From positions 1 through 36,948 of IMG/VR virus record IMGVR_UViG_3300021478_000078: a stretch of DNA of 36,948 nt, one strand, 5' to 3'. A program made the translations under genes and the position numbers. Positions 17,888 through 29,240 of this stretch are shown piece by piece. Origin of the DNA: a virus. The notes under the pieces are model-generated. The model was not told where the DNA came from. It searched no databases and was given only the letters and a program-made list of their open reading frames with translations. How positions within the stretch are numbered: position 1 is the stretch's first letter; each line of letters starts with the position of its first letter.

Positions 17888-18904
17888 TTACGCAGTGATT
17901 CCGTTAAAAAGAATATGGGCGAGACTGTTTCTCATCTCGACGCCCCATTCGACGACGATCATCCGGCTTTCGGCGTCACCGATGCGCGCCATCAGGTACT
18001 GGCGGAACGACCTGAAAAATGCGACCGCCGCATAATCCGGATCGATAAGTAGTCCGACGTCTGGCGGGATCCAGCGCGAAGGAATGCACTTCACGCGCCC
18101 GAAATCCGTAGCGATAACATCCACTGTCGATACGACTTCCGTCTTGCCAACCAAGACTTGCGTAGTAGAACGGCCGACGAATGTTGAGACAGTACGCTTA
18201 GGCCCTGGCGGAACTACCCAGAGTGTCGGGCTCGCCCCATTTGTATACGCTTTCTGCATGGCGTCACCCAACATTTGTTCTGTCAGTTGGATGGCGGTAG
18301 GCGCGGGGAAGACCGTGTAAGCGGTCGTCGGCAAGCCGGTCGTCGAGGTGCCAGGCGCGATCGAGCCGGCCGGCGCGTTGGTCTTGTCCGTGGCGCGGCC
18401 TAGCCAATGCGAGAAGCCCTCAGTCACGCGGGCGACAGGCGTAGCGGCGTCGTTGCCGTCGATCCGCGGCTGGCGAGAGCACAAAGCAACTTCGATGTCC
18501 GACTTCAATACTTTCGAAGTCATAGCCATCTGGTGCGCCATTTCGCTGCCCTTGCCGGCGGCGTCACTTTCCTCTTGCGAGCCAGACACAGTAGCGTCCC
18601 GCTCGCTAATCTGTGTGACATTGTTTTGACGAATCGTCGGTTGTGCCGGCTTATTGACGAGTTGAAACCCTTCCACCTGTGCATTTGCCGCCGGATCCAT
18701 CGCGCCAGTGCCTGGCACAACAGACGGAGCAACGAGAGGTAGAAATTCGGTCTGCCAGTCAAAAAGCCGGTTCTTTACGTTACGTCTGCGTATAGCGGAC
18801 ATAACTGGAGTATCGAACGGGTCGATATTGTATATAGCGTTGCTGAGGTCTTCTCTATTACCTACCGCTTGGTAAGTAGTAAAGGCGTTCGTTACTTTCG
18901 CCAT
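17888..18904 (-). CDS. major capsid protein, SU10/DUF5309-like (338 aa)
   Basis: The N-terminus MAKVTNAFTTYQAVGNREDL...YNIDPFDTPVMSAIRR is the signature of DUF5309/SU10-type HK97-fold capsid proteins, including the N-I-x-P-x-D-T-P motif at about 26-33. Later segments (DWQTEFLP, ISERDATVSGSQEESDAAGKGSE, PTLWVVPPGPKRTVSTFVGR, DVGLLIDPDYAAVAFFRSF) follow the order of that family, and the length fits. There is no pro-domain, so a separate scaffold is used; it is encoded next. Ordinary strong late gene with ATG at 18904. Confidence 0.9.
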   Translation of the reverse strand: MAKVTNAFTTYQAVGNREDLSNAIYNIDPFDTPVMSAIRRRNVKNRLFDWQTEFLPLVAPSVVPGTGAMDPAANAQVEGFQLVNKPAQPTIRQNNVTQISERDATVSGSQEESDAAGKGSEMAHQMAMTSKVLKSDIEVALCSRQPRIDGNDAATPVARVTEGFSHWLGRATDKTNAPAGSIAPGTSTTGLPTTAYTVFPAPTAIQLTEQMLGDAMQKAYTNGASPTLWVVPPGPKRTVSTFVGRSTTQVLVGKTEVVSTVDVIATDFGRVKCIPSRWIPPDVGLLIDPDYAAVAFFRSFRQYLMARIGDAESRMIVVEWGVEMRNSLAHILFNGITA

Positions 18905-20146: not shown

Positions 20147-20432
20147 TTCCCTGCCTATTCCGCGCCATGCTGTAGTCGCTGACGAACCGCTTAACCTCGA
20201 GCGGCACGGCGTCGAGCACCTTCAGCTTGGCTAACAAATCGTTCTTCTTGTCGCGCTCAGTCGCGTCGAGGAGCTCGCCGTACCATCGAATGCGAAGGGC
20301 GCGAACCGCGAGCATGAAAATCCCCTTCTCGCTGAGAAGCTCGTTCGCCTCGTCGGCCAGGATCTTCTTCGCCGCGGTGTCGTTCGCCCGGGCGTCGACC
20401 TGAGTCGGGTCGATGTTCGGCAAGCCGGTCAC
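20130..20432 (-). CDS. hypothetical protein between portal and scaffold genes (100 aa)
   Basis: The family is not recognised. It is mostly helical (AAKKILADEANELLSEKGIFMLAVRALRIRWYGELLDATERDKKNDLLAKLKVLDAV) with a basic end. It is encoded from a GTG at 20432 that overlaps the portal stop as GTGA. Small proteins in this slot are often head-assembly helpers, but nothing in the sequence proves that here. Confidence 0.65.
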   Translation of the reverse strand: MTGLPNIDPTQVDARANDTAAKKILADEANELLSEKGIFMLAVRALRIRWYGELLDATERDKKNDLLAKLKVLDAVPLEVKRFVSDYSMARNRQGNAGRN

Positions 20433-22918
20433 CCGTCACCTCCACCAGGCTGTTGAGCCGCCGCGGACGCCTGAGTTTCCGCAACCGCCTGGTCGCTGGC
20501 GTTCTGCATACCCTGCGTGTGCACGTCGATGGCGCCGTCGTGCGCCGTCTTGAAGATGTCCGCCGCCATCTTGCCGAGCGCCTGGACATGCTGAGCGTGG
20601 ATCTGATCGGCCTGGAGGTTGAGCTTCGCCTGGTCGTTCAGCGTCTTCTCGCGCAATTGCTGCAGCGCGAGCTCGTGATCCTGGTCTTGCGCGGCTTTCC
20701 GGAGGTTCTGATCGCCAAGCGCCGCCGCGGCGTCGGCTTTAACTTTTTGATATTGTGCTTGGGCGGCCAAGGCCATCGGATCGGGCTCTTTCGGCGCCGC
20801 GAGCATCGCTTGCATCTGTTGCGGCGTCGGCATTTTGAAATATCTGCCGACGTTTTTGATATTGGCGATCGCCAGCATGTCAGTTTCGACATTCATCATT
20901 TCGGGGAGCCCGCACACGGGATTGTTGAGGCCCATTTGCGCGACGATCGTCTGTTGATCTTGCTTGATTTGCTGCAGTGTCATCAGGCGGACAGTGTCAC
21001 TGCCTTTGCCGAGGGTTGGGTTGACTTCTACGGACATCGAAGCGTCGAACGTCGAGGTGTCGTAATCCACCCACTTGCCGTTGATCTTGAGAGTCCGTTG
21101 CTGACTAGGATTCTCCACCACCTCGTTGAACAGGCCGCTGAACAGATCCTTGAAACCCGTCTCAGCGAGCACTCTCGCGACAAGCTCCGTGCGCTCTTGC
21201 TGCCCGTTTATGATCGCCTCGACTCCGACCATCGTAGAGCTTTGAAGTGCTTTAGGATCGAGGCCCTTTGCCGCATCACTCAAGCCAGTACGCCGCTGGA
21301 GCACATCGTTCAGAAATTCGATGACTGGCAACGCCGCCTGACCAAGAAACGGGATGTTGTTGAAAGCAACCGCGTTGTTGACGTCGCCTCGCGTCCGGAT
21401 GACCGCGCCTAGATCGTCGTTCAATGCGTCGTCGACAGTGGTAGTGAGCTCGTTAATGACGGTCTTAGGATTAAGGCTTTCCGCGGCGCTATCGAGGATG
21501 GCGCGGCTCAGGTTCGTCTTGATCCGCTGAATGTCCATCACCAGATCGGCAATCGAATCTCCGACGATCGTGTGGCTGATCGGATCGACCGAAAACAGGG
21601 CGAATTTGATTCGGTTGGCCGGGTCGTCCGAGATCAGCGTGGCGTTCTCGCCCATCGTGATGACGTGGCGAAGTTCGGGGAAACCGTCGCCGTCCTGATC
21701 GGCCTTGATGTACCATTCGCCGTATTTCACGCCGTCGCCCACCCGCGTCGACATGATCCGGCCGGGATTGCGCAATTGCGGCTCGGTCGTGAACTCCGCG
21801 ATCGACTGCGACTGCACGTAGTCGAGGAGCATCTCGCGGTCGTAGCCCATCGCGGTGAGCTCATCGATCGGCACCACGCGCTCGTGGCCGACGATCCGGC
21901 TTTCACGGAAAGTTCTCGCATAACGGTCGAGCCGCATTTCTTCCGGCGGCACGCCGCACACGCGGATCAGCGGTTTCGCAACCTCGTACTGGAAAACAAC
22001 GTGATCATAGATCGCCACCGGCGGCATTGGCGGCGATTGAGGGGGCGGCGGCGGCCCGGGAGCCGCGCCAGGGCCCATAGGAGCCCCGCTGGCGGCCATT
22101 CCGGGCGGCGGGCCAGGTGGAGGGCCGCCAGGAGTGGGAGGGGCTCCTGGGGGCCCTCCTGGGCCGCCTGGAGCCATTCCTTGCGGAGGAGCGCCAGGAG
22201 GACCGCCCATGCCGGGAATCGCCCCTGGCGGCCCTGGAGGGGGCTGCATCTGGGGCGGCGGCGGCAAAGGATCGCCAACCTCGAGCACTTTCGCGCTCGG
22301 ATCTTCCGTAAGGATCTGTTGAATTTGCTGCGCGGTGATATGCGTGAACTCCTTGCGTCGGAGCTCCTTGCGCGTGTCGGTCCACCATTTGACGTAGCCC
22401 GTTTTCACGGTCATTGCGTCTTTGAACGCGCCGTAAAGTATTAAAAAGCCGCTATTGTCATTCCAGAAAGTATAGTTAACAAAATTCGTCGCCTGTTCCG
22501 CCATATCGCTGTCTTCGGCGGTGCGCGGCACAAGCTCGATCGGGCTCTCCGACGCGCCAAATAGCCTGATCAGGCTCGGCAGCATCAGCATAATCGCGTC
22601 CCGAACGTCGGTTGAGACGAAACTCGACCGATTTGCGACGTCCTGGGGTTGATTTGAGTACTGGTTGTACGTGGCGTCCCTATCTTGGATCAACGTCGTG
22701 TCTGACCACGGATTGTCGTCCGGATAGAGCGTCGGCAGTAAACCGTAATAATATTTCTGCGCGTAATCCCGATTCGCCGCGAGAACGGAGCCCTCATAAT
22801 CGCGGGCGTCCTTGATCATCGCATTGAGGAATTGCTCGTAACTGTCGGGATCGCCAGGATCATAGCTCGAAGTGTTTAAATTCGAACTATCCTTGAAGGA
22901 TGCAAAGATCCGTTCCAA
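20429..22918 (-). CDS. portal protein, P22-like, with Pro/Gly-rich insertion (829 aa)
   Basis: This is the dodecameric DNA gate of the capsid. Recognisable portal features include the N-terminal helices, DAIMLMLPSLIRLFGA (wing/clip region), DPISHTIVGDSIADLVMDIQ, NPKTVINELTTTVDDAL, RRTGLSDAAKGLDPKALQSS and a long helical barrel from about 710 to 829 (Gln/Ala-rich coiled coil). At 829 residues it is longer than P22 gp1 (725 aa). Residues about 217-300 are an almost pure Pro/Gly/Ala/Met insertion before VAIYDHVVFQY. The start is TTG at 22918; GGGGGATGGGG lies upstream at a long distance, so the first residues are uncertain. Confidence 0.85.
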   Translation of the reverse strand: MERIFASFKDSSNLNTSSYDPGDPDSYEQFLNAMIKDARDYEGSVLAANRDYAQKYYYGLLPTLYPDDNPWSDTTLIQDRDATYNQYSNQPQDVANRSSFVSTDVRDAIMLMLPSLIRLFGASESPIELVPRTAEDSDMAEQATNFVNYTFWNDNSGFLILYGAFKDAMTVKTGYVKWWTDTRKELRRKEFTHITAQQIQQILTEDPSAKVLEVGDPLPPPPQMQPPPGPPGAIPGMGGPPGAPPQGMAPGGPGGPPGAPPTPGGPPPGPPPGMAASGAPMGPGAAPGPPPPPQSPPMPPVAIYDHVVFQYEVAKPLIRVCGVPPEEMRLDRYARTFRESRIVGHERVVPIDELTAMGYDREMLLDYVQSQSIAEFTTEPQLRNPGRIMSTRVGDGVKYGEWYIKADQDGDGFPELRHVITMGENATLISDDPANRIKFALFSVDPISHTIVGDSIADLVMDIQRIKTNLSRAILDSAAESLNPKTVINELTTTVDDALNDDLGAVIRTRGDVNNAVAFNNIPFLGQAALPVIEFLNDVLQRRTGLSDAAKGLDPKALQSSTMVGVEAIINGQQERTELVARVLAETGFKDLFSGLFNEVVENPSQQRTLKINGKWVDYDTSTFDASMSVEVNPTLGKGSDTVRLMTLQQIKQDQQTIVAQMGLNNPVCGLPEMMNVETDMLAIANIKNVGRYFKMPTPQQMQAMLAAPKEPDPMALAAQAQYQKVKADAAAALGDQNLRKAAQDQDHELALQQLREKTLNDQAKLNLQADQIHAQHVQALGKMAADIFKTAHDGAIDVHTQGMQNASDQAVAETQASAAAQQPGGGDG
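22019..22270 (-). repeat. Pro/Gly-coding low-complexity tract inside the portal gene
   Basis: GC-rich degenerate repeats encode about 84 residues rich in GGPPGAPP and PPPGPPPG units within the portal frame. The frame stays open throughout, so this is an insertion in the protein and not a break. The tract separates two conserved portal segments and probably forms a flexible or polyproline-like loop on the portal surface. Confidence 0.75.
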
Positions 22919-22945: not shown

Positions 22946-23140
22946 TTATCCCTGATCTCCCTGCAAGGTCAAACCAACAGATTTGCACAAGGCGCGTTGC
23001 TTCTCGCGATCGCGCAGCCAGAGCTCCATCGGCGGCCCAACCGGCCCGACGAAGTCAGGATCCGGCCGCCAAAGCGCCTCGAGCTCAGCCTCAGTACGCT
23101 TCGGGCGCGGTTTCCGTGAAGTGCTTGCAGATCGTGGCAT
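22946..23140 (-). CDS. hypothetical basic N-terminus mini-protein (64 aa)
   Basis: The family is not recognised. It starts MPRSASTSRKPRPKRTEAELEALW, a basic Ser/Lys/Arg tail, and continues RPDPDFVGPVGPPMELWLRDREKQRALC. The ATG at 23140 lies inside the next gene upstream, overlapping its end by 50 bases in another frame. Both frames look protein-like, so both are kept. It is 27 bases before the portal start. Confidence 0.5.
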   Translation of the reverse strand: MPRSASTSRKPRPKRTEAELEALWRPDPDFVGPVGPPMELWLRDREKQRALCKSVGLTLQGDQG

Positions 23141-23345
23141 AGCGGGGGATGCGCTGCGTCTCCCGGCCGTGGCTCATCGCCCTGGCCTTGCCGCACACGG
23201 CGCGCGGATCGCCCTGACGCTTGGGCGACCAGAACCAGCATTCGCGGCAAACCTTCTTCGCGCCTGGAATGGCGAAGTCAGCCTGGCCGGGATGGGTCAG
23301 AAGTTGGGCGCTCGTCTCACCCGTGAAATTTTTCGAGCCTAACAT
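23091..23345 (-). CDS. hypothetical Cys-containing small protein (84 aa)
   Basis: Four cysteines and conserved-looking spacing (VCRECWFWSP...VCGKARAM...YATICKHFTE) suggest a zinc-binding mini-fold like those found near terminase and portal genes of many phages. No named family is recognised. It starts ATG at 23345, directly after a perfect hairpin (23359-23402), and overlaps the next ORF by 50 bases. Confidence 0.6.
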   Translation of the reverse strand: MLGSKNFTGETSAQLLTHPGQADFAIPGAKKVCRECWFWSPKRQGDPRAVCGKARAMSHGRETQRIPRYATICKHFTETAPEAY

Positions 23346-23358
23346 CGAAGCCCCGGCA

Positions 23359-23402
23359 GGGATCGGACGTCGCGGCTATTGCGGTAGTCGACGTCCGATC
23401 CC
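23359..23402. terminator. perfect 14-bp hairpin after the PEP-CTERM gene
   Basis: GGGATCGGACGTCG (23359-23372) and its exact complement CGACGTCCGATCCC (23389-23402) enclose a 16-base loop. It lies 22 bases past the end of the PEP-CTERM gene in the direction of late transcription. On the minus strand there is no T-run after it; on the plus strand ATTTTCC follows. It could be a partial terminator, an RNA-stability element or a protein site. Confidence 0.55.
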
Positions 23403-23424: not shown

Positions 23425-24144
23425 TTAAAGCCGCCAGAACGCGCTCTCACGCCGGCGAAAGCCGGCGTAGCCCAGCCCCAAGAACCCCAAGATCATCATC
23501 ACCCAAGTCGATGGCTCAGGGACCGCTTCCATGCCCACCGAATTGCCGATCAACTGCGCTCCCGGCGCGAGCGTGAACACCATCGCTTCGGTCATCGAAA
23601 AGGGCGTGCTATGCATGAACGGGTTGTCGCCCTCGAACGAAAACGCCAGCGGGCCAGCCCCGGCGCTGTCGCTGTCGCTGGTGATCAGGTGTCCCGGCGT
23701 ATTGGTCGAAGTCAGCGCGCCGTCGACGTTCGCCCCGTCAACGAAGAACGCGAACTTCGCCGTCGATGCGCCAACCCCGTTCCACGTCCCAGAAACCGCC
23801 GTCATGATGCAGTTCTCGGTGCCGGGATAGCCGTTGTCGCTGAACGCCATGAACAGCGTCTTGGCGGCGCTCGAATTGTTGGTGATCAGCAAGTTGGAGA
23901 CGTTCAGCGCGTCGCCGTCAGGACTAGGCAGCTTGCTGGATTGGGTGAACGTGCCGAAGACGCTCACCCCATCGAGAATTTGCCGCGCGACGACAAGACC
24001 GTTCGGCAACGGATCAAGATCGCTTGGCCCACCGTCCGCGGCGACGAACGAGTTTCCGTCCACCGACATCGCGAGCCGTAGCTGCGCAAGAGCCGGGTAG
24101 GCGGTCGCGGCCAAAATGGCCGCGCTCAACAGGTATTTATTCAT
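23425..24144 (-). CDS. secreted PEP-CTERM sorting-domain protein (239 aa)
   Basis: The N-terminus MNKYLLSAAILAATAYPALA is a Sec signal peptide with a likely cut after residue 20. The last 32 residues carry VPEPSTW (about 208-214), a Gly/Leu-rich membrane segment (MMILGFLGLGYAG) and an RRR anchor: the complete tripartite PEP-CTERM signal recognised and cleaved by exosortase. The 185-residue ectodomain is Ser/Gly/Asn-rich and beta-like, with a single Cys. Such proteins belong to bacterial surface/EPS systems. Here it sits in the phage late operon, 18 bases after the Pro-rich gene, with a strong GGGGGA ribosome site, and is followed by a hairpin. It is presumably processed by the host exosortase. 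Its function is unknown; a lysogenic-conversion-type or surface-modifying role is inference. Confidence 0.88.
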   Translation of the reverse strand: MNKYLLSAAILAATAYPALAQLRLAMSVDGNSFVAADGGPSDLDPLPNGLVVARQILDGVSVFGTFTQSSKLPSPDGDALNVSNLLITNNSSAAKTLFMAFSDNGYPGTENCIMTAVSGTWNGVGASTAKFAFFVDGANVDGALTSTNTPGHLITSDSDSAGAGPLAFSFEGDNPFMHSTPFSMTEAMVFTLAPGAQLIGNSVGMEAVPEPSTWVMMILGFLGLGYAGFRRRESAFWRL

Positions 24145-24162
24145 CGTTCCCCCTTGCTGGAA

Positions 24163-24834
24163 TTATCGCTGCCCGGGACGCTTAGGCTGCGCAGTCGGCG
24201 GTTGCGGCAAGCCCTGACCAGGCGCCGGCGGACGTCCAGCGACCGGCGGCCGCGGCAACCCTTGGCCTGGCGACGGCGGCGGCATACCAGGACGCTGGGG
24301 CGGCAAGCCCTGGCCTGGAGCCGGCGGACGTCCGCCTGGCGGCAAGCCCTGATCCGGATGCTCGCCTTCGCCGGGAGCGCCCTCGTCGACGCCGTAGTCG
24401 GGATCGGTCGCGCCCATCTGGATCACCACGTAGCGGTACCCGACGCCTTCGATCGCCACCAGGACGACCGCCTTCTGGCCCTCAAGATCGGTGCCAGGAG
24501 GCAGCGGCGGCCAAATCGTGCCAGGCGGCGGATCGACCGGCGGCAGCGGATGACCGGGAGAGGGAGGGGCGATCGGATGGTCTGGATCGACCGGCCAGAC
24601 CGGCAAGTGGCCGGCTTCCGGCGGATGCTCGCCGTCGCCTTCGTCGATCCCGTAGTCGGGATCAGTCGGGCGGCCAGGGCGCGAAGGAAGGTTGCCAGGG
24701 CGCGGTGGGCGAGAGCCAGGCGGCCGATGCCCGGGATGCAGACCGCCGCCGGGAAGACCCTGATCGGGATGACCGCCGCCAGCGCCCGGGCGCTCGTCAA
24801 CGAATTGAATGTACGCCCATGAACCCTGTGCCAT
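24163..24834 (-). CDS. Pro/Gly-rich repeat protein with HPDQGLP units (223 aa)
   Basis: The ATG at 24834 (MAQGSWAYIQFVDERPG) lies behind GGAGG; the longer opening to 24846 uses TTG. Residues 20-55 and 150-223 are Pro/Gly-rich with repeated HPDQGLP, PGQGLP and RPPAPGQ units, and a similar segment TDPDYG[IV]DEG occurs twice. The centre (about 115-145) is a small ordered patch (EGQKAVVLVAIEGVGYRYVVIQMG). Proteins of this style accompany terminases in phages of alphaproteobacteria. The function is unknown. No signal peptide or membrane segment is seen. Confidence 0.7.
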   Translation of the reverse strand: MAQGSWAYIQFVDERPGAGGGHPDQGLPGGGLHPGHRPPGSRPPRPGNLPSRPGRPTDPDYGIDEGDGEHPPEAGHLPVWPVDPDHPIAPPSPGHPLPPVDPPPGTIWPPLPPGTDLEGQKAVVLVAIEGVGYRYVVIQMGATDPDYGVDEGAPGEGEHPDQGLPPGGRPPAPGQGLPPQRPGMPPPSPGQGLPRPPVAGRPPAPGQGLPQPPTAQPKRPGQR

Positions 24835-24849
24835 GCGATCCTCCAAAGT

Positions 24850-25360: not shown

Positions 25361-25550
25361 TGGCCTTCCTCAAGCAAGCGCACCGCTCCAAATCCGCCGG
25401 CGGCTCCTTCTCGCACGCCATCATCGTCACCACCATCTCGCCGCGCGCCGCTTGCTCGCGCGCCTTCGGGCAATCCGCCCGATGCAAAACCGGCCGATCG
25501 CCAGCGGCGTTCGGCGCCAGCGCATAATCGGGCCGCTCAGACGAGGCCAC
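25347..25550 (-). CDS. hypothetical Cys-rich small protein (67 aa)
   Basis: Begins at a GTG (25550) 14 bases inside the end of the large terminase gene. The pattern HRADCPKA...MACEKEPPADLERCACL (one His, four Cys) suggests metal binding. No family is recognised. It is tightly packed between terminase and the membrane-anchored protein, so it is expressed with the packaging genes. Confidence 0.55.
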   Translation of the reverse strand: MASSERPDYALAPNAAGDRPVLHRADCPKAREQAARGEMVVTMMACEKEPPADLERCACLRKASGVV

Positions 25551-26868
25551 GGATCCGCCTCCGCAACCGGCCGCCGAGCGACAGGCTCGACGACAGCGCA
25601 GTGACCAACGGCAGACCCACCGCGACCGTCTTCATCGCGTCGGCGCCGTGGCTCGAGTCGTCGTGCACCGGCGTGCCGAACTTCGAGCGTTTGTAGCCGC
25701 GCAGTCGCGCCAGGCCGCGCCGGCAGCGTTGCTCGTCGAACCAGGCGACGCCAAGCACGCCGCGCACCGCGCCGACGCCGTCAGCATCCGAAACCCGGTC
25801 CGCCGTCAGGATCGGCGTCGAGGTCGAGTTCATCAGCGTGATCCGCCGGCTCTCGGCCGAGCCCCATTCCCGAACCTCGACGTCGTGCGGCAGAATGTGC
25901 GCCTTGAACGGCACGCCCCAGCCCTTGGCCTTGCGCTCGATCAGCTCCAAATAATGCGGCCCTTTGTGCCCCCGATCCTCCACATAGTCGACGAAATGAA
26001 GCTCCCGGCCGGCGATCTGAAACAACCAAACGCAAGTGAAATCGTGGATCCCGATGTCCCAGCCGCTGATCAGGCTGGCGGATAGATCCACCGGGACCGT
26101 AGTCACCCGATGCTGTTGCTGCAGGGCGTTCATCGCCTCAGTATAATACGCGCCCTCGACCGGCGCGTCGAAAGCATTCAACATCTCGCGAGCGTATTCG
26201 TCGGCCGGCATGTCGCGCGTTAGCTCCTTTTGCTCGTCGAAGCTGAGAGCGTCCTCTTTGGTGTCAGTAATCTTAATGTCGAATACATCCCAGTTGTCGT
26301 CATCCTCCGCTTTCAACTTGACCGCATGAAAATGATCGTCGCCGTTGGACGTGCCGCTGACCACCGCAAAGCCGCGGTAATCCGCCAAACACGGTCGAAC
26401 GACACTGGTCCAGGCGCGCGGATTGAGAAGCGGATACTCGTCCAAAACCGCGCCGTCGAGATAAATCCCCCTAATCCGCTCATACGCCTGGCCGCCGCCA
26501 TACAGCCGAATCGTCGCCCCGGAAGGAAAAATCACCGTGAGCTCGCCCTCCAAAAACCTGATCCCAGGATAGTCGCCGGCGTAAAACTTCAAATAATTCC
26601 AGCATAAATCCTTCACCTGGTCGAAACTCGGACCGACGTAAGCGTACCTGGGAGGAGGATGCCGGCGAGGATTGCTCAGCGCGGCCCGGATCAACTGATT
26701 GCACAGCGCCACGGTTTTCCCCGCGCGACGATGCGCAACCACGAACATAAACCGCTTTTCGGAAGCGTGCAGCGGCCGAAAATGCGGCCGAGGACGATAC
26801 GGAATGATCGTCGCCGGAGCCTGATCAGGCGCGTCAGGCAAAAGATCGTCGAAAACGTCCGAAGTCAT
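25537..26868 (-). CDS. terL: large terminase subunit (443 aa)
   Basis: The DNA-packaging motor. ATPase: Walker A AHRRAGKT at 45-52, Walker B LDGAVLDEY around 137-145 (Asp143, Glu144), and the coupling segment VVSGTSNG near 169-176. Nuclease (RNase H-like): GWDIGIHD at 269-276 (Asp271 and Asp276), HFVDYVED, and DDSSHGADAM at 403-412 (candidate third acid). The length is normal. It couples by ATGA with the small subunit. The relatedness to a headful or cohesive-end packaging type was not determined; no cos site was identified. Confidence 0.95.
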   Translation of the reverse strand: MTSDVFDDLLPDAPDQAPATIIPYRPRPHFRPLHASEKRFMFVVAHRRAGKTVALCNQLIRAALSNPRRHPPPRYAYVGPSFDQVKDLCWNYLKFYAGDYPGIRFLEGELTVIFPSGATIRLYGGGQAYERIRGIYLDGAVLDEYPLLNPRAWTSVVRPCLADYRGFAVVSGTSNGDDHFHAVKLKAEDDDNWDVFDIKITDTKEDALSFDEQKELTRDMPADEYAREMLNAFDAPVEGAYYTEAMNALQQQHRVTTVPVDLSASLISGWDIGIHDFTCVWLFQIAGRELHFVDYVEDRGHKGPHYLELIERKAKGWGVPFKAHILPHDVEVREWGSAESRRITLMNSTSTPILTADRVSDADGVGAVRGVLGVAWFDEQRCRRGLARLRGYKRSKFGTPVHDDSSHGADAMKTVAVGLPLVTALSSSLSLGGRLRRRIRGLV

Positions 26869-29052: not shown

Positions 29053-29240
29053 AGCTATATAGCTTGCAAGGCTATTCACTAAATTTGCTATAAAAAGGAG
29101 TCGCCTTCCACATGAGGCGCACCTGTTTTTGTACTGACATGGTTTTCCATGTCAGTACAAAAAATTTCATGCAAGCATCGCGGGGAAGGCGTATCGTTTA
29201 TATAGCAATATAATTAAATTGCTTTGCAAGCTGTATAGCT
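29053..29240. repeat. 188-bp imperfect palindrome: two 57-bp inverted arms
   Basis: Left arm 29053-29109 and the reverse complement of right arm 29184-29240 align without gaps at 45 of 57 positions (79%). The outer ends hold AGCTATATAGCT (left, itself a perfect palindrome) and AGCTGTATAGCT (right). The inner ends hold CGCCTTCC and GGAAGGCG. The region is AT-rich against a GC-rich genome and contains no gene. It ends 12 bases before an HTH gene. It could be a multi-site operator, a replication origin or the remains of a mobile inverted-repeat element. Confidence 0.75.
29126..29163. terminator. perfect 17-bp hairpin at the centre of the large palindrome
   Basis: TTTTTGTACTGACATGG (29126-29142) and its exact complement (29147-29163) flank a TTTT loop. 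The arms begin and end in T or A runs, so it would work as a bidirectional intrinsic terminator or as a cruciform. Nothing upstream makes it an ordinary gene terminator, since the last gene ends 150 bases earlier. Confidence 0.65.

Follow-up and report, generated by a model that had tools for sequence, protein, structure and literature searches.

A predicted exosortase substrate with an exchangeable ectodomain, encoded among the virion genes of a metagenomic phage

The window analysed here is the whole of an IMG/VR virus record (36,948 bases) that derives from a metagenome and represents a soil phage. Between its terminase and SU10-type portal genes, and on the same strand, lies a gene for a 239-aa protein that begins MNKYLLSAAILAATAYPALA-QLRLAM, the first part being the predicted signal peptide, and ends VPEPSTWVMMILGFLGLGYAGFRRRESAFWRL (Table 1). 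A sequence-only reading of this DNA had proposed that the protein carries a complete PEP-CTERM signal, that the gene is set among terminase and portal genes with a ribosome site of its own, and that a hairpin follows it. All of these features are present: a signal peptide, the VPEPSTW motif, a hydrophobic segment and an Arg cluster in the protein; AAGGGGG ahead of the ATG; and a hairpin with a folding z-score of -4.25. The neighbours of the gene, a Pro/Gly-rich ORF on one side and a small Cys-rich one on the other, also lie on that strand inside the terminase-portal interval. The signal peptide was called from sequence features and the predicted N-terminal helix, which are conserved among homologues, and not with a dedicated predictor.

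Table 1. The PEP-CTERM gene, its parts and its surroundings in the window.
Feature	Position	Strand	Basis
SU10-type major capsid protein (context)	17888..18904	-	PF17236, E 1.7e-74
SU10-type portal (context)	20429..22918	-	PF23899, E 1.9e-148
Small Cys-rich ORF, downstream of hairpin	23091..23345	-	Conserved in relatives; no family match
Hairpin 3ʹ of PEP-CTERM gene	23359..23402	-	14-nt perfect arms; compensatory changes
PEP-CTERM protein gene, 239 aa	23425..24144	-	ORF; PF07589 and TIGR02595 above cut-off; 60 phage homologues; dN/dS ~0.11 against L002 (ectodomain)
PEP-CTERM sorting tail, residues 207-232 (VPEPSTW, hydrophobic helix, Arg cluster)	23449..23526	-	Profiles; conservation in 60 homologues
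Ectodomain, predicted beta-sandwich, residues 21-206	23527..24084	-	AF2 mean pLDDT 86.4; hhalign remote homology to chromosomal PEP-CTERM proteins (94.5)
Predicted Sec signal peptide, residues 1-20	24085..24144	-	Sequence; AF2 N-terminal helix; present in homologues
Shine-Dalgarno AAGGGGG, before ATG	24149..24155	-	Sequence
Pro/Gly-rich protein, PDQGLPG-like repeats, just upstream of PEP-CTERM gene	24163..24846	-	ORF; frequent neighbour of PEP-CTERM genes in relatives
Terminase large subunit (context)	25537..26868	-	PF03237, phrog_2

Profile searches bear out the PEP-CTERM assignment. The window protein scores 29.5 bits against PF07589 (Pfam; cut-off 20.7) and 23.2 bits against TIGR02595 (cut-off 16). 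It falls narrowly short of the stricter PEPxxWA-CTERM subclass, NF035944 (32.1 bits, cut-off 35), which one homologue, L140, passes with 38.7 bits. Across 60 homologues, P209, E210 and G220 are invariant and T213, W214 and M216 are at least 90% conserved; 54 of these proteins match PF07589, and 54 match PEPxxWA-CTERM (E ≤ 0.001). The nearest relatives of the tail are proteins of Bradyrhizobium, Sphingomonas and Phenylobacterium. PHROGs offered no convincing family for the protein, and a PDB sequence search with it returned nothing meaningful. We have next to no doubt that the gene and its sorting signal are real. Three homologues (L134, L141 and L142) pair an ectodomain of the window-type family with a tail of another class, VPEPATL, VPEPASL or VPEPFSL; we conjecture that such tails may belong to another exosortase class.

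The hairpin keeps its place in nine phages, with 11 pairs that are 100% paired and four two-sided changes, a result matched in 0 of 500 shuffles. It has no T-run and hence is not a canonical intrinsic terminator; possibly, it is an mRNA-end or processing element. A simple scan for terminators and promoters gave nothing convincing. At 29126-29163 the window also contains a perfect 17-nt inverted repeat with a 4-nt loop and A/T-rich outer ends, which is possibly a bidirectional terminator. Neither phage records nor family libraries contain a match to the Pro/Gly-rich protein, and a Pro/Gly-rich ORF also adjoins the PEP-CTERM genes of three relatives (L002, L097 and L120). The portal itself has a highly variable Pro/Gly-rich insertion at about residues 218-300, and many relatives align with it only from about residue 300.

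The gene recurs widely among viral contigs. A search with the portal gave 65 loci, many of which, according to a simple motif scan, have an ORF with a PEP-CTERM tail upstream of the portal. With a tail profile, 16 of the 4,473 ORFs of portal-related loci matched; five shuffled sets and a reversed one gave no match, indicating that the matches are not due to chance. Contigs were also picked by portal and length: 16 were at least 30 kb long, of which 14 were tested whole, four of them already known from the motif scan. Twelve of the 14 carry a family or tail match, and no PEP-CTERM gene was found in the other two. Viral contigs also yielded 194 candidate stretches to a profile built from 11 proteins; we retained the top 80, and in the weakest the similarity is confined to the tail. 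Homologues in other phages, a check to which the sequence-only reading had pointed, are thus plentiful in such contigs, and four tblastn queries, the window protein included, returned no hit from a set of 50,697 deposited phage records. We are practically certain that this is a genuine phage gene family. At nine loci, two PEP-CTERM genes with different ectodomains are adjacent on one phage contig. The contig of L148, a virus record of 54,935 bases, encodes an integrase, and its two strands together carry five or more PEP-CTERM ORFs; it could represent a prophage or include some bacterial DNA.

In close relatives, on independent contigs, the order terminase, Pro/Gly-rich ORF, PEP-CTERM gene, Cys-rich ORF, portal is retained, and in some more distant relatives the gene is elsewhere. 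It lies between terminase and portal on the opposite strand in four contigs (L094, L106, L110 and L132), between divergent terminase and portal genes in two (L109 and L117), between an upstream ORF and the capsid gene in L141, and next to a virion-region gene in L134, which has a P22-type portal. Two contigs of other phage types (L003 and L004) carry a different ectodomain. Unlike the window, the nearest cultured phage by portal, Ochrobactrum phage vB_OspP_OH (37.9% identity), has a terminase gene that abuts the portal gene, with no insert and no PEP-CTERM gene there. The shifting position and strand, the unrelated phage types and the missing insert in vB_OspP_OH are what a mobile cargo gene would be expected to show. 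Together with the exchangeable ectodomains described below, they strengthen the earlier suggestion that the gene is a moron. The terminase-like ORF of L141 (positions 140-2539 of that contig) has an apparent intein-like insertion, with an LLGFYLGDG block and a VTHN end before S, recognised by eye only.

L017 and L021 show how ectodomains are swapped while the tail stays. Their portal cores are 98% identical and their tails 82% identical, whereas their ectodomains, which belong to different families, are only 30% identical. DNA similarity stops where the upstream ORF ends and restarts at L017 position 1990, at about codon 209-210, which is the PEP motif; the alignment places a conserved tail and downstream hairpin beside dissimilar ectodomain DNA. 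The window and L008 differ in the same manner (portal 89%, ectodomain 25%, tail 61%). The window and L002 share an ectodomain that is 82% identical (76% over the whole protein), but their primases are only 32% identical and their flanking genes differ; on the 10.8-kb contig of L002, neither capsid nor terminase gave a match. For this pair, ectodomain dN/dS is 0.106, and for several other within-family pairs it is 0.16-0.27 (unsaturated pairs overall, ~0.1-0.27). Ectodomains are under purifying selection within families, which by itself is no sign of an arms race, and the sorting tail is selected separately from the ectodomain. L010 and L013 have identical ectodomains and different signal-peptide sequences, which suggests recombination at the 5ʹ end as well.

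AF2 models the window protein as an N-terminal helix, a beta-sandwich and a C-terminal helix (pTM 0.80). Fold searches returned only generic beta-sandwich matches, some of them to carbohydrate-binding modules, with TM-scores of at most 0.5. The model of a second ectodomain family had a pLDDT of 47.9 and was not used. Two chromosomal PEP-CTERM proteins (L161 and L163) have an ectodomain homologous to the phage family (163 columns, 27% identity, hhalign probability 94.5, E 7.9e-8). Their genes are set among bacterial genes, and their tails read PEPTSLALL and PEPATLALL, in contrast to PEPSTW in the phage protein. Eight other bacterial PEP-CTERM ectodomains gave hhalign probabilities of at most 0.3 against the phage family, and at least 7 of 385 alphaproteobacterial genomes sampled have a match, mostly in the tail. 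Homology to these rare chromosomal proteins, remote as it is, makes a bacterial origin of the ectodomain likely.

Exosortase profiles matched nothing in 30 phage records, the window included. Hence, the need for a host exosortase, foreseen by the sequence-only reading, holds. That reading also depended on exosortase being present in plausible host lineages, and this is the case: exosortase was found in all nine tested bacterial genomes that hold the closest tails, in 13 of 99 Bradyrhizobium species and in 4 of 150 genomes sampled from the wider family. Given this scattered distribution, a working tag would require a host strain that has exosortase. Portal relatives occur in phages of Ochrobactrum, Sinorhizobium, Rhizobium and Bradyrhizobium, which points to alphaproteobacteria as hosts. 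We also sought the host through a near prophage, but a capsid search of 150 BTAi1-family genomes found relatives in only four, at 35-38%, which is too distant. Lysogenic conversion is not favoured, because neither the window nor the 14 portal-group records showed a PF00589 tyrosine integrase (serine integrases were outside the scan); three other contigs do have a tyrosine integrase.

What could a phage gain from such a protein? Our analysis establishes that the gene and its tail are real, that the gene recurs, that selection on it is purifying, that ectodomains are exchanged under a kept tail, and that no exosortase is encoded by the phages tested, nor a tyrosine integrase by the window or the portal-group phages tested. 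We propose that this cargo gene encodes an exosortase substrate. By inference, it is probably a late gene, expressed alongside the virion genes. Sec would export the protein, again by inference, and the C-terminal helix would hold it in the inner membrane. The host exosortase would then cut it and transfer it to the outer surface or the extracellular matrix, where the displayed ectodomain would alter the envelope of the infected cell. Both the processing and the final location are inferred; a changed cell surface and a block to superinfection, the two effects that the sequence-only reading had suggested, are plausible on this view. We are fairly confident of processing by the host exosortase, even with the host unidentified and with no processing experiment on any phage PEP-CTERM protein, and consider it likely that the protein acts at the cell surface. 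The likeliest benefit would be superinfection exclusion, or keeping progeny off cells that are already infected or lysed, since shielding the infected cell or the progeny from further adsorption is the most plausible use of a surface protein that a lytic phage expresses late. There is a precedent in Llp of T5, an envelope-anchored exclusion protein in a lytic phage (PMC9586334). The ectodomains resemble no known exclusion protein, and we put exclusion as the main role at slightly less than an even chance. To the explanation as a whole, a late-expressed exosortase-substrate cargo gene that remodels the surface of the infected cell, most likely for superinfection exclusion, we assign a probability of roughly 0.5.

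The main rival to exclusion is a change in the matrix, since the PEP-CTERM protein PepA of host bacteria binds exopolysaccharide to cells: it moves exopolysaccharide from the soluble to the bound form and restores flocs (PMC9850573; PMC9012009). A phage exosortase substrate could likewise change exopolysaccharide retention or clumping, and so aid spread to neighbours or hide infected cells. Indeed, at E ≤ 0.001 the floc_PepA model finds 12 of the 60 phage members, one of them over nearly its full length, and carbohydrate-binding modules are among the weak fold matches. However, no individually scanned member reaches the NF033554 cut-off of 80 bits (best 47.3), and comparison of the ectodomain alone with three true PepA proteins gave an hhalign probability of 0.4. 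Hence, the floc_PepA matches probably arise from signal peptide, tail and composition, and the homology to PepA that they suggested was not detected. We consider a matrix role unlikely, although it deserves to be taken seriously.

Other explanations place less weight on the ectodomain, or none on the exosortase. The tail might act as a decoy: phage substrate in abundance would occupy all of the host exosortase, so that PEP-CTERM proteins of the host, for instance a phage receptor or a matrix protein, are no longer displayed, and the ectodomain would be incidental. Retention of the tail while ectodomains are swapped, and the two or more PEP-CTERM genes of many phages, would fit such a decoy; nonetheless, neither purifying selection on the ectodomain (dN/dS as above) nor its prediction as a confident folded domain is expected of ballast, and we regard the decoy as improbable. 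Alternatively, the C-terminal helix could be the plain transmembrane anchor of a virion, lysis or membrane protein, with the exosortase irrelevant. A helix with an Arg cluster is also a generic anchor, and the gene lies among virion genes, but a generic anchor has no need of the invariant P, E and G or the near-invariant T, W and M. The profile matches in 54 of 60 members and the single tail common to unrelated ectodomains argue against it further, leaving this explanation with a slim chance at best. Lastly, the record derives from a metagenome, and hence could be a chimeric or bacterial contig into which misassembly has put a host gene. This is contradicted by independent recurrence: the same gene order in independent contigs, a conserved hairpin, and homologues in unrelated phage types make misassembly barely credible.

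If the preferred reading, remodelling of the infected-cell surface, is extended to the whole family, mostly lytic soil phages, a large group, may co-opt exosortase and PEP-CTERM as a display system, with a fixed signal peptide and tail, exchangeable ectodomains, control of other phages' access, and a tail type matched to the exosortase class of the host. We offer this generalisation only tentatively. Keeping the tag while the displayed domain changes would show that the pathway controls something that phages care about, probably access to the cell surface. If true, it would give phages of Gram-negative bacteria a surface-display route separate from lipoproteins. To our knowledge, the biological role of most exosortase substrates is unknown. 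In literature on PEP-CTERM or exosortase and phage, we found no report of a phage using the pathway, and hence no earlier description of surface display by the infected cell's own exosortase (subscription papers were outside our scope). The original description of PEP-CTERM does not mention phages (PMC1569441).

The known systems closest to the one proposed here differ from it in distinct ways. T5 Llp/Cor are phage-encoded envelope proteins, anchored by host machinery, in a host-lysing phage, and we propose them as a functional parallel; they are lipid-anchored through an N-terminal Cys, about 60 residues long and periplasmic (PMC9586334), and we claim no sequence relation to the window protein. 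The latter has no lipobox Cys after its signal peptide, its predicted mature N-terminus being QLRLA. Since Llp works from the periplasm, the analogy is functional only. Flocculation PepA (NF033554) has the same overall layout as the phage proteins, some of which match its model below the cut-off, but its ectodomains are not detectably homologous to theirs, and the window protein scores 14.9 bits against a cut-off of 80. With bacterial PEP-CTERM proteins of the PEPxxWA-CTERM/TIGR02595/PF07589 class, the window protein shares the signal peptide, C-terminal motif, hydrophobic helix and basic end. In contrast to that class, its gene is phage-encoded, lies in or near virion genes, and forms a cassette with an exchangeable ectodomain in a phage that has no exosortase of its own.
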